64,000 bases of DNA. It comes from Methanolobus zinderi (lineage in GTDB: Archaea; Halobacteriota; Methanosarcinia; Methanosarcinales; Methanosarcinaceae). Each line of letters opens with the position of its first letter. The first letter of the stretch is position 1. A program made the translations under genes and the position numbers. The notes under the pieces were generated by a model. The model was not told the DNA's origin, did not search any database, and saw only the letters and a list, made by a program, of their open reading frames with translations. Positions 47,340 through 51,548 of this stretch are shown here, piece after piece. The stretch is taken from NCBI RefSeq assembly GCF_013388255.1, contig NZ_CP058215.1:2471332-2535331 (forward strand), written 5' to 3'.

Positions 47340-50300
47340 ATGAAACTAAAAGGAAACAGTTTAAAATCATATTTACTTTGCATATTGATCCTTTTCTCCC
47401 TGTTCTCAGGGTGTATCGGAAATTATAACGACGACTCACAACTGCCCTCCAATCAGGCGGGCCAGTGCAGCGGACAGCTCGCAGACTCAGGTGACGAGTT
47501 CTTCATACTCGCTCCGAAGATGCTATTCTCCGGGGGAGAGAGTTCCGTTACCATGGCAGCATTTGAGGCCGGAGAGCCTGTAAGTCGCTGCATCGAGTAT
47601 ACACTGACCGATGAGGACAATAAAGAGATACCACTTACAAAGGTTTCCACATCCGAATCAGGAAATTCGGTGGCATCCTTTGAAGTACCCGATGTGGAGG
47701 AAGGAAGTTATGTACTCACCGCAAGTCCGGCGGGTTATGAGCGCAATTTTACCGCCACTGTGGAAGTTGTAAAGAACAATCCGCTCTTCATCGAGACTGA
47801 CAAACCCATATACAAACCGGGACAGACAGTACATGGCAGGATACTTTCCCTGAACAACAATCTTGTGCCAGTGGAGCAGGATATAAATGTCGAGATAACA
47901 GATGCCAAAGGCATCAAGGTATTCAAACAAGAGCTGAGCTCCAATGAATACGGCGTGGCGTGCTTTGACATTCCACTTGCCAGCGAACTGAATCTTGGCA
48001 CATGGAAGATAATCGCAACTTCCGGGGAATCAACATCCAGTGTTGATATCGAAGTTGACAAGTATGTGCTGCCCAAATTCGATATTTCACTCAGCACGCC
48101 GCAGGAATGGTTCCTGGTATCTGATGAGATTACGGGTACTGTTTCGGCAAACTACTTCTTCGGCAAGGATGTGGAAGGTGAGGTACTTGTTGAGGCTTCA
48201 CGCTATGTGGGTGAGTGGGAACAGTACGCAACATTCAGCGGAGAAATTGAAGATGGTTCTCTTGAATTCGAGCTCCCGGCAGTGGAGTATGCAGCCGGCA
48301 CTTATGGTGCGGGAGGGCAGGCAAGCCTGATGCTCAATGTGACTGTGACCGACACAGGTAATCACAGCGAGACCACAAACAAGTTACTCACGATTGCAGA
48401 TTCCCCTGTAGTTTTGCAGTTGATACCTGAATCCGACTATGTCAAGCCGGGAATGCTCCTGCAGGTGCTTGTAGTTACAAAAGATCCCGGAGGAAATCCT
48501 GTTGATACTGAGGTGGATATGGATGCTACCTTCAGAAACGAGTCCTATGAGGAAACAGAAGAGCAGGATACAGTCACAACCAGTAATGGTGTTGCCCTGA
48601 TAACATACGATGTCCCTGAATCCACCACAGCATGCTACCTCAATGCCCGTGCAAATGAGGCGTCAGCCTACAGGGAGATGGGAGCGGTCTACTCACCGAG
48701 TGCAAGTTTCATTCACATCAGCCAGACAAGCGAAGGAGTTCCTGAAGTAGGAGATACCATATCCTTCAGGGTATACTCCACAAATCCCGGAACTGTGTTC
48801 TATGATGTCTTTGCCAACGGCAGGACCGTATATTCGGCAACCAGCAATGAGCAGGATATCAGCATACCTGTCACCCCGCAAATGAGTCCACAGGCAAAGG
48901 TTGTTGCATACATGATCAATCCCAACAGCGAGGTCTCTGTTGATGTGCTGCCATTTGATGTGCAGTTCTCTACAAAGGTGGACCTTTCCAGCTCCTTTGA
49001 TAGCGATTCAGTTGAGCCCGGAGACAATGTTAGCGTTAACTTCGATGCAGGCAGCAGATCCATGATCGGCTTTTCCATCGTTGACGAGTCGGTATATGCT
49101 CTTAGCGAGGGACGGCTCAACCTGAAACAGGTATTCGATGAACTTGAAAAGCGCTTCATGGAACCACAGGCAGAATCCCATCCGGTGTGGAATCGGAAAG
49201 GAGCATACGAGATGCTGGAAAACTCCGGTGTGACCGTTATGGTATCACCCGGAATCAATGTGCCGAAATCTCCGACCGGTTATGACAGAGTTGAAGAGAA
49301 GAATTTTCTGGGAGATGTTGTTGTTGATGAAGTAGCGATGGATGTGGTTGAAGAGGAAGTGGCAATGCCAGAAGCTGTTCCCACCGAAGCTCCGGCTGCA
49401 GGTGCAGAGCCGCTTGCCGAAGTAGAAAGAGTACGCCAGTTCTTCCCCGAAACATGGTTGTGGATGCCAGACCTGCTTACAGATGATCAGGGACATGCCA
49501 GCCTTGACCTGACAGCGCCGGACAGCATCACCACATGGAAACTGCATGCAGTATCATCAGGTCCGGAGGGCATAGGGATCTCCGAATCCAGCCTGACGGT
49601 TTTCCAGGATTTCTTCATCGACCCCGACCTGCCTTATGCGGTTACAAGGGGCGAGGAGTTCCCTGTGCAAATACAGGTCTACAACTATCTTGACACGGAA
49701 CAGGAAGTAAAACTCACACTATCGAATGCAGACTGGTTCGATATTATTGGTAATGATGTTCAGGAAGTAGCAGTTGAAGCAAACAGTGTGGCCCATGCAA
49801 GCTTCACTATCCAGCCCACGGATGTTGGAAAGCAGCTGATTGAGATCACAGGCCAGACAAATGAGAAAGCCGATGCGGTTCGCAAGGAAATTATCATCGA
49901 ACCGGAAGGTGCTACAAGGGAGATTGTGGATAACGGCGTCCTGAAGAATGATTCAGTAGAACTTGATCCGACCCTGCCTGAGGAAATAGTTGCTGACTCA
50001 GGCAAGGCGCTTGTGAGCTTTACCCCGAGTATAGTCGCCCAGACCATAAACGGTGTGGACAACCTGCTTGGAATGCCCTACGGCTGCGGTGAGCAGAATA
50101 TGATGCTCTTTTCCACCGATGTGGAAGTGCTGCGCTACCTGGAAGCCACAGGGCAGGATAATCCTGAACTGAAGGCAAAGGCCGAGATGTATATTGTCAC
50201 AGGTTACCAGCGAGAGCTGACCTACAGGCACAGCGACGGCTCATTCTCGGCATTCGGTGAGAGTGATCCAGAAGGCAGCCTCTGGCTGACATCCTTCGTG

Positions 50301-51548
50301 CTGTCCCAGTTCAGCGGTGCAAGGGACCTGACCACCATTGATGAGAATATTCTTGCGGAATCTGCCTCATGGATAGAATCACATCAGCAGGAAGATGGTT
50401 CCTGGGAACAGGTTGGCTTTGTGATACACGAGGACATGATGGGAGGTGTCAGTGGCACCTATGCACTGACTGCGTATGTCACACTTGCACTTGATGAATA
50501 CGGTTCTGCAAGTCCTGTTGTTATGGCTGATGCGAAGAAGTATCTCGAGGAGAATCTTGCAGCCCAGGATGACCCCTATGCTCTGGCAATCGGCACCCTT
50601 GCCCTGCAGAGACTTGACAGCCCGTTTGCCGACGAGGCTCTGAACGACCTGCTGGCTATCGCAAAACAGGATGATGACGGTACCTATTGGGGCTACGGTG
50701 ACGGTGCTGTGGCAAAACCCTATGAGTATGAAGGCTACAACTTCATCGCACCTTCCAGCAAGAACGTGGAGACCACAGCCTACGCAACCCTTGCCCTGAT
50801 AGAGGCAAATAATCCTACAGCCAGCTCATCACTGAAATGGATAGCTGCACAGCGTAATTCAAACGGCGGCTTCTCCAGTACCCAGGATACGGTCATGGCC
50901 TTCAGGGCACTGATGACCGCAGCAGCTACTGCAGGAAGGGATATCGATGCTACAGTCCAGGTGATTGCAGATGGTGAAGAGATCAAATCCATCAATGTGA
51001 ACTCTGAAAACTTCGATGTCGTGCAGATAGTGGAGATTCCCAAAAACGCATCAAATGTCACACTCGAACTTGACGGTACAGGAGAGCTGAACTACCAGCT
51101 TGTAAGACGCTTCAATGTGATCCTTCCGGAGGTAGTTGAGCAGAACGAGATCGAGCTTGATGTGGAATATGACTCCACCGATGTCGCGGTAAACGATATA
51201 GTCACCGTGGATACCCGTCTAAAGTACAACGGAATACAGGGAATAGACGGTTCTGTGAGTTCCAGCGGAATGATGATAGTGGACATCGCGGTACCAACCG
51301 GATTCACACCTGTATCATCAAGCCTTGATGCACTCAAGAAAGATGGCACGATTACCAGATACGAGATTGCAGGCCGTAAGGTGATACTCTACATAGATGA
51401 CATGCAACCCGGCGAGGAGATCAGCTTCAGCATACAGGTCCGGGCACTGTTCCCTGTGAAGGCCATCGTGTCTGAGAGCAAGGCTTACTCTTACTACAAT
51501 CCGGAGGTTGTGGCTGAATCTAATGGTAGTAATGTGACTGTTGTTTGA
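47340..51548 (+). CDS. Alpha-2-macroglobulin family lipoprotein, animal-type thioester
   Basis: 1402 residues. Lipobox LFSGC (Cys25) predicts lipid anchoring to the outer face. Macroglobulin domains follow, including the MG2-type ETDKPIYKPGQTVHGRI. A variable acidic segment (about 655-700) sits at the bait position, then the A2M domain FFPETWLWMPDL...PDSITTWKLHAV. The thioester is PYGCGEQNM (Cys916, Gln919), with the TED helices after it, including TGYQRELTYRHSDGSFSAFGE, and a C-terminal receptor-binding-like domain. Members trap proteases when the bait is cut. The CGEQ form is that of animal A2M/C3; enterobacterial YfhM has CLEQ. Confidence 0.95.
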   Translation: MKLKGNSLKSYLLCILILFSLFSGCIGNYNDDSQLPSNQAGQCSGQLADSGDEFFILAPKMLFSGGESSVTMAAFEAGEPVSRCIEYTLTDEDNKEIPLTKVSTSESGNSVASFEVPDVEEGSYVLTASPAGYERNFTATVEVVKNNPLFIETDKPIYKPGQTVHGRILSLNNNLVPVEQDINVEITDAKGIKVFKQELSSNEYGVACFDIPLASELNLGTWKIIATSGESTSSVDIEVDKYVLPKFDISLSTPQEWFLVSDEITGTVSANYFFGKDVEGEVLVEASRYVGEWEQYATFSGEIEDGSLEFELPAVEYAAGTYGAGGQASLMLNVTVTDTGNHSETTNKLLTIADSPVVLQLIPESDYVKPGMLLQVLVVTKDPGGNPVDTEVDMDATFRNESYEETEEQDTVTTSNGVALITYDVPESTTACYLNARANEASAYREMGAVYSPSASFIHISQTSEGVPEVGDTISFRVYSTNPGTVFYDVFANGRTVYSATSNEQDISIPVTPQMSPQAKVVAYMINPNSEVSVDVLPFDVQFSTKVDLSSSFDSDSVEPGDNVSVNFDAGSRSMIGFSIVDESVYALSEGRLNLKQVFDELEKRFMEPQAESHPVWNRKGAYEMLENSGVTVMVSPGINVPKSPTGYDRVEEKNFLGDVVVDEVAMDVVEEEVAMPEAVPTEAPAAGAEPLAEVERVRQFFPETWLWMPDLLTDDQGHASLDLTAPDSITTWKLHAVSSGPEGIGISESSLTVFQDFFIDPDLPYAVTRGEEFPVQIQVYNYLDTEQEVKLTLSNADWFDIIGNDVQEVAVEANSVAHASFTIQPTDVGKQLIEITGQTNEKADAVRKEIIIEPEGATREIVDNGVLKNDSVELDPTLPEEIVADSGKALVSFTPSIVAQTINGVDNLLGMPYGCGEQNMMLFSTDVEVLRYLEATGQDNPELKAKAEMYIVTGYQRELTYRHSDGSFSAFGESDPEGSLWLTSFVLSQFSGARDLTTIDENILAESASWIESHQQEDGSWEQVGFVIHEDMMGGVSGTYALTAYVTLALDEYGSASPVVMADAKKYLEENLAAQDDPYALAIGTLALQRLDSPFADEALNDLLAIAKQDDDGTYWGYGDGAVAKPYEYEGYNFIAPSSKNVETTAYATLALIEANNPTASSSLKWIAAQRNSNGGFSSTQDTVMAFRALMTAAATAGRDIDATVQVIADGEEIKSINVNSENFDVVQIVEIPKNASNVTLELDGTGELNYQLVRRFNVILPEVVEQNEIELDVEYDSTDVAVNDIVTVDTRLKYNGIQGIDGSVSSSGMMIVDIAVPTGFTPVSSSLDALKKDGTITRYEIAGRKVILYIDDMQPGEEISFSIQVRALFPVKAIVSESKAYSYYNPEVVAESNGSNVTVV

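Follow-up and report, generated by a model that had tools for sequence, protein, structure and literature searches.

A predicted membrane-anchored alpha-macroglobulin of animal type in the methanogen Methanolobus zinderi

The 64,000-nt stretch of Methanolobus zinderi DNA analyzed here (contig NZ_CP058215.1, positions 2,471,332 to 2,535,331; hereafter the window) carries, on the forward strand at 47340..51548, a gene for an alpha-2-macroglobulin (A2M) lipoprotein of animal type. Its open reading frame (ORF) has an ATG start, is intact and encodes 1402 aa, and its identification is based on ORF reading, translation, Pfam searches and comparison with orthologues. By domains, motifs and phylogenetic position the protein groups with the animal A2M family and not with the YfhM type of Escherichia coli. 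At a probability of roughly 0.68, it is best read as a membrane-anchored, protease-triggered covalent thioester trap resembling human CD109 and A2ML1.

Architecture of the protein

Every domain match of the protein in the Pfam search exceeded the curated cut-offs, and the order of the macroglobulin (MG), bait region (BRD) and thioester (TED) domains, MG2-MG3-MG4-BRD-A2M-TED-receptor-binding, is that of the animal proteins. The motif CGEQ, which is present in every member of the CGEQ clade examined, stands within MPYGCGEQNM and is predicted to form the thioester between Cys916 and Gln919 (50085..50096); it lies in a TED_complement domain (aa 898-1192, 50031..50915; PF07678, E 3.6e-79) bordered in the predicted structure by strands, as if inserted in a CUB domain. 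Upstream of this are the bait region domain A2M_BRD (aa 459-588, 48714..49103; PF07703, E 1.3e-24) and the A2M domain (aa 705-794, 49452..49721; PF00207, E 1.7e-29), and the C terminus is formed by a receptor-binding-type domain (A2M_recep, MG8; aa 1308-1391, 51261..51512; PF07677, E 5e-17).

The N-terminal part begins with a predicted signal peptide (47340..47414), read from the sequence as ending in the lipobox LFSGC with Cys25 as the lipidated residue. A lipobox Cys occurs at the matching place in 17 of 18 archaeal and 8 of 11 bacterial orthologues. There follow MG2 (aa 149-239, 47784..48056; PF01835, E 8e-23), with the motif IETDKPIYKPGQT that is conserved across the CGEQ clade, MG3 (aa 241-311, 48060..48272; PF17791, E 8e-13) and MG4 (aa 365-443, 48432..48668; PF17789, E 1e-5). 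The MG2-MG3 linker YVLPKF (aa 242-247, 48063..48080) is conserved in nearly all prokaryotic members. The complete macroglobulin claimed in the preliminary description of this DNA, from lipobox to receptor-binding domain, was thus found in full by sequence and Pfam. In the same search the protein showed none of the domains bMG1/2/3/5/6/10 and no match to anaphylatoxin or C345C/NTR domains.

Comparison with animal and bacterial macroglobulins

The top match in the PDB is human A2M (E ~4e-123, over residues 113-1390). The C-terminal half alone matched 61 PDB sequences at E <= 1e-3, and among the 60 matches listed all are animal by name (A2M, A2ML1, CD109, TEP1 and complement-type), with neither E. 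coli nor Salmonella A2M present. Identity in the TED is 37.6% to human A2M, 38.3% to CD109 and 17.9% to YfhM, as compared with 38.8% between A2M and CD109 themselves, and the TED_complement score of 266 bits stands against 33 bits for the E. coli YfhM control. AlphaFold2 models were made on clade alignments, with the N- and C-terminal halves folded separately (mean pLDDT, the predicted local distance difference test, of 75 and 78, respectively). The C-terminal model gives template modeling (TM) scores of 0.79 to native A2M, 0.77 to CD109 and 0.77 to A2ML1, and 0.35 to activated C3b; the N-terminal model fits the MG rings of complement and CD109.

The Methanolobus protein therefore has in common with human CD109, A2ML1 and A2M the domain order, the CGEQNM motif, an RxxFP plug, a YVLPKF-type linker, the receptor-binding domain, the predicted fold and approximately 38% TED identity, and with CD109 and A2ML1 also a catalytic His. 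It differs from them in its archaeal lipoprotein anchor, its total of only 7 cysteines, its acidic, Lys/Arg-poor bait and its prokaryotic host. In the literature YfhM is regarded as a protease trap of the envelope, and SaA2M is likewise a bacterial Type I A2M. YfhM (also ECAM) is a distant homologue that shares a Cys-x-Glu-Gln thioester and the bait-region domain; unlike the Methanolobus protein, it has 1653 aa, the bMG1/2/3/5/6/10 domains and CLEQ, adjoins pbpC, and lacks the catalytic His and the plug. Pfam, TED identity and the tree described below agree on a CGEQ motif and architecture of animal type, as had been proposed from the sequence alone.

Assignment to the other known types also fails. 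Complement C3 and insect TEP1 share the MG ring, the thioester domain and the fold, and C3 the same catalytic His chemistry, but C3 is more distant in sequence than A2M, A2ML1 and CD109, and the anaphylatoxin and C345C/NTR domains were not found by Pfam, so membership in complement C3/C4/C5 was rejected. Bacterial Type II A2Ms (MagD) are defined by lack of the thioester motif and by a six-gene mag operon (PMC5764988); in Methanolobus the motif is present and the gene stands alone. The A2M homologues of Halobacteria and the VARTIG proteins of Thermococcales are likewise archaeal surface proteins with Ig/MG-like domains, some with a TED and CxEQ, but by their description they are set apart by a different domain organization and gene neighborhood (PMC8416519). 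In sequence, domains and tree, every feature examined in the Methanolobus protein is that of the animal type, and those of YfhM, of Type II and of complement proper are missing.

Phylogeny and the origin of the animal family

A tree was built from 71 sequences and 690 columns spanning the A2M domain to MG8, in which the animals were represented by three sequences, all human (A2M, A2ML1 and CD109). These three fall in a single clade with all prokaryotic CGEQ proteins (100/100); the CFEQ and YfhM types are outside it, and the YfhM clade is separate (100/100). The preliminary description had named a place inside YfhM-type clades as one result that would refute it; the protein falls outside the YfhM clade, and in the approximately unbiased (AU) test a grouping of animals with YfhM was rejected (p 0.0003). 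These results bear on the view that the protein is an ordinary bacterial Type I (YfhM/ECAM) A2M gained by a methanogen from a bacterium, as was suggested for Methanolobus psychrophilus: its protein WP_015053894.1, probably the orthologue of the one described here, is among several Methanomicrobia proteins called closely related to bacterial homologues and is held to have been acquired from bacteria (PMC8416519). Close relatives of the Methanolobus protein do occur in bacteria, but they are of the CGEQ type and not of the YfhM type; since domain content, TED_complement score, tree and AU test are all contrary to YfhM-type membership, we consider this explanation highly improbable. It is possible that an archaeal ancestor gained the gene from some bacterium, as the archaeal proteins cluster together (96/93) and are nested with Planctomycetota and Omnitrophota (98/98).

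The animal proteins join the CGEQ proteins of Chloroflexota (100/99). A grouping of archaea with animals was rejected (AU p 0.0004), which disposes of direct exchange between archaea and animals; the archaeal proteins are not the closest to those of animals. On these data the position of the animal proteins, sampled as three human sequences, inside the CGEQ clade is firm, and their sister relationship to the Chloroflexota proteins is likely.

The direction of transfer is a separate matter. A 2022 structural study describes the ancestral animal A2M protein as CD109-like, with an origin in animals after sponges had split off, and holds bacterial A2Ms to derive from animals (PMC9156758); the latter idea is repeated, as a non-definitive hypothesis, in PMC13069473. 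Under such a scheme the CGEQ clade would be a derived offshoot of animal A2M that passed to a prokaryote and then spread among prokaryotes. The strong similarity to animal proteins fits this, as does the direction favored in both papers for bacterial A2Ms generally. The reliance on three human proteins leaves it some room, and an all-prokaryotic CGEQ clade with the animals outside was not rejected in the large set (AU p 0.085) and was weakly rejected in the set without YfhM (AU p 0.026). Animal branches are long, that of CD109 being flagged as such in the latter set. Against an animal source, human A2M, A2ML1 and CD109 together form a clade (100/100), a nesting of prokaryotes within animals by pairing CD109 with Chloroflexota was rejected (AU p 0.0002), and the CGEQ prokaryotes show deep splits that span archaea and three bacterial phyla, with the animals placed beside Chloroflexota. 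We therefore regard animal-to-prokaryote transfer as unlikely.

For the CGEQ branch the data favor, short of proof, the opposite direction to that in the literature. Somewhat below even odds, the animal A2M/CD109/complement family may have come from a prokaryote by horizontal transfer, with a donor near the Chloroflexota CGEQ proteins, and the archaeal proteins may be living outgroups of these thioester innate-immunity proteins, already equipped with the whole trigger mechanism. The existence in prokaryotes of a clade that has the entire animal architecture, the catalytic His and the trigger residues challenges both statements of an animal origin (PMC9156758, PMC13069473) and may bear on the origin of thioester-based innate immunity; the origin of the complement/A2M family becomes testable by ordinary phylogenetics and biochemistry. 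No paper describing the prokaryotic CGEQ clade was found in a literature search that left most subscription journals outside its scope.

Bait segment, plug and a proposed trap mechanism

Following the bait region domain is a hypervariable segment (aa 631-690, 49230..49409) that is acidic, rich in Ala, Met, Val, Glu and Pro, nearly devoid of Lys and Arg, and largely predicted to be disordered. Among 28 orthologues, identity in aa 661-690 falls to 23% with 12% gaps, most other parts of the protein being at roughly 70-95%, and pLDDT is ~28 at aa 650-700. The variability, composition and predicted disorder of aa 661-690 are those expected of a bait region. A second fast-evolving stretch was seen in MG4 (aa 391-450, 48510..48689), which is ungapped with 37-47% identity among orthologues and may be a contact surface with targets.

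Immediately beyond the bait lies the motif R699-Q-F-F-P703 (49434..49448), which in alignment with human A2M, A2ML1 and CD109 is the counterpart of A2ML1 Arg730-Pro734; it is conserved across the clade, apart from a misalignment in one row (L148), and YfhM has QQALP at this position. In A2ML1, bait cleavage releases Arg730-Pro734, a plug held in a channel formed with Tyr214-Pro217, and a nearby His converts the thioester to an acyl-imidazole that reacts with hydroxyls and amines (PMC9156758). By analogy, the YVLPKF linker is the probable counterpart of Tyr214-Pro217 and would form part of the channel around the plug. The putative catalytic residue is His1030 (50427..50429), which aligns with the His of CD109 and A2ML1 and is found in all aligned prokaryotic CGEQ rows, while human A2M has Asn and YfhM nothing alignable. 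It is located 114 residues beyond Cys916, which fits the C3/C4B-type spacing of ~110 residues between thioester Cys and catalytic His. That the A2ML1 switch depends on these same residues (PMC9156758) is counted in favor of a trap in Methanolobus.

In the mechanism proposed, the lipid anchor would hold the protein on the outer face of the cytoplasmic membrane, under the S-layer. A protease entering this space would cut the exposed, disordered bait segment, and the released end, carrying the R-Q-F-F-P plug, would be withdrawn from the channel that MG2 and MG3 form with the YVLPKF linker. Rearrangement of the MG ring would then expose the Cys916-Gln919 thioester, His1030 would attack it to give an acyl-imidazole, and this intermediate would bond covalently with hydroxyls or amines on the protease or on some adjacent surface, leaving the protease trapped and immobilized at the archaeal surface. 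The lipoprotein anchor, the hypervariable bait, the thioester and the plug all fit a protein that traps foreign proteases at the cell surface, and such a role would make the Methanolobus protein a candidate extracellular defense in archaea that lack peptidoglycan. With its few cysteines it is also a disulfide-poor, probably monomeric subject for the study of trap mechanisms.

Several points weigh against a trap. The few Lys and Arg residues in the bait would disfavor trypsin-like enzymes, and the composition may rather point to subtilisin-, elastase-, thermolysin- or Glu-specific enzymes. The models behind the predicted fold rest on shallow alignments, with each half taken alone (mean pLDDT 78 and 75). 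Within the genus 25 of 27 genomes have the gene, and within the family 43 of 112; not being universal, and looking broken in some relatives, it is therefore dispensable. Finally, insect TEPs with the same anatomy are believed to be complement-like rather than protease inhibitors (PMC9156758), so anatomy alone does not prove inhibition.

An alternative is tagging or adhesion in the manner of complement or TEPs, in which cleavage would lead to thioester attachment to foreign cells, particles or matrix glycans with no inhibitor role. A catalytic His of the C3/C4B/CD109 type permits ester bonds to hydroxyls, CD109 also has a membrane anchor, and TEP-like proteins have been proposed for archaeal conflict systems (PMC8416519). 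The protein has no anaphylatoxin or C345C domain and no conserved partner gene, however, its hypervariable bait-like segment is of the inhibitor type, and a lipid anchor restricts its reach; we consider a tagging role rather unlikely. A housekeeping function, regulating proteases that the cell itself secretes or the turnover of its envelope and not serving in defense, would suit a stand-alone gene kept in nearly all genomes of its genus, but the presence of the gene across the family is patchy and a hypervariable bait would more readily suit foreign enzymes whose range keeps changing, making this role improbable. A protease trap of the CD109/A2ML1 kind is accordingly preferred to both.

Distribution and genomic context

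The host genome, a single 2.70 Mb contig that is 99.96% complete, has one A2M gene. Elsewhere in the phylum the gene is rare. Across ~85,000 species scanned, relatives turned up in Methanolobus, Methanococcoides, Methanomethylovorans, ANME-2, Altiarchaeota, Chloroflexota (chiefly Dehalococcoidia), Planctomycetota and Omnitrophota; the scan used exact peptides including GCGEQNMM, by which members ending in NMI or NML are under-sampled. What the preliminary description implied to be an isolated animal-like oddity instead represents Methanosarcinaceae within a prokaryotic CGEQ clade spread over several phyla. Three motif types were seen among the loci, CGEQNM, CFEQTSS-like and YfhM-like CxEQ[TV], and the TED scores in Chloroflexota are bimodal, with 12 complete matches at 282-305 bits and the remainder at <=66 bits.

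No pbpC adjoins the gene, as the preliminary description had stated and the neighborhood confirms; E. coli yfhM, by contrast, does adjoin pbpC. In Methanolobus the gene comes after a conserved block consisting of an energy-coupling factor (ECF) transporter, an ArsR regulator, a permease, modE and wrbA, named by similarity and context. This sharing is limited to close relatives, and no neighbor is held in common with ANME-2, Altiarchaeota or bacteria; the Methanolobus A2M appears to act alone, without a pbpC partner. Viral contigs and phage records held no relatives, and on plasmids there were only distant Deinococcus/Meiothermus proteins, which argues against viral, phage or plasmid carriage. 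Contamination was rejected because the contig is single and complete, the region is syntenic with other Methanolobus, and relatives lie on contigs with archaeal genes (nop5).

The gene is not a pseudogene here, its frame being open and widely conserved, but some relatives are broken. In Methanolobus halotolerans SY-01 (L004/L046) the orthologue is interrupted by an in-frame TAA, and in L050 and probably L051 it lies in two separate frames, which reflects either decay or sequencing error. Two of the 27 genomes of the genus are without the gene.

The CGEQ-type proteins of Omnitrophota (L066, L143-L151) are longer, at ~1720-1780 aa, and in L066 an N-terminal extension of ~300 aa goes beyond the archaeal form; several Omnitrophota genomes have an additional CFEQ-type paralogue. 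Two Chloroflexota genomes (G462, G368) carry a CGEQ-type and a YfhM-like A2M together, and the two types are therefore not alternatives.

Planctomycete loci with TGA at the thioester cysteine

In 13 planctomycete loci of the CFEQ type (L117, L120, L121, L122, L125, L127, L128, L130, L133, L134, L136, L137 and L139), a single in-frame TGA falls exactly at the thioester Cys (G-TGA-[FM]EQ), and the frame is open on both sides. Of the genomes concerned, 10 of 13 have selB over the cut-off and 11 of 13 have a tRNA-Sec match (>=67 bits, or just above the gathering score). In the 48 nt that follow the TGA, the predicted fold is more stable than in the Cys homologues (mean z -1.64 vs -0.23, Welch p 0.0001), as would be expected of a selenocysteine insertion sequence (SECIS). 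Judged from sequence, the TGA probably specifies selenocysteine, and the products would hence be selenoester macroglobulins (UFEQ/UMEQ). The literature search found no paper on selenocysteine A2Ms, and these proteins are possibly more surprising than the Methanolobus macroglobulin itself.

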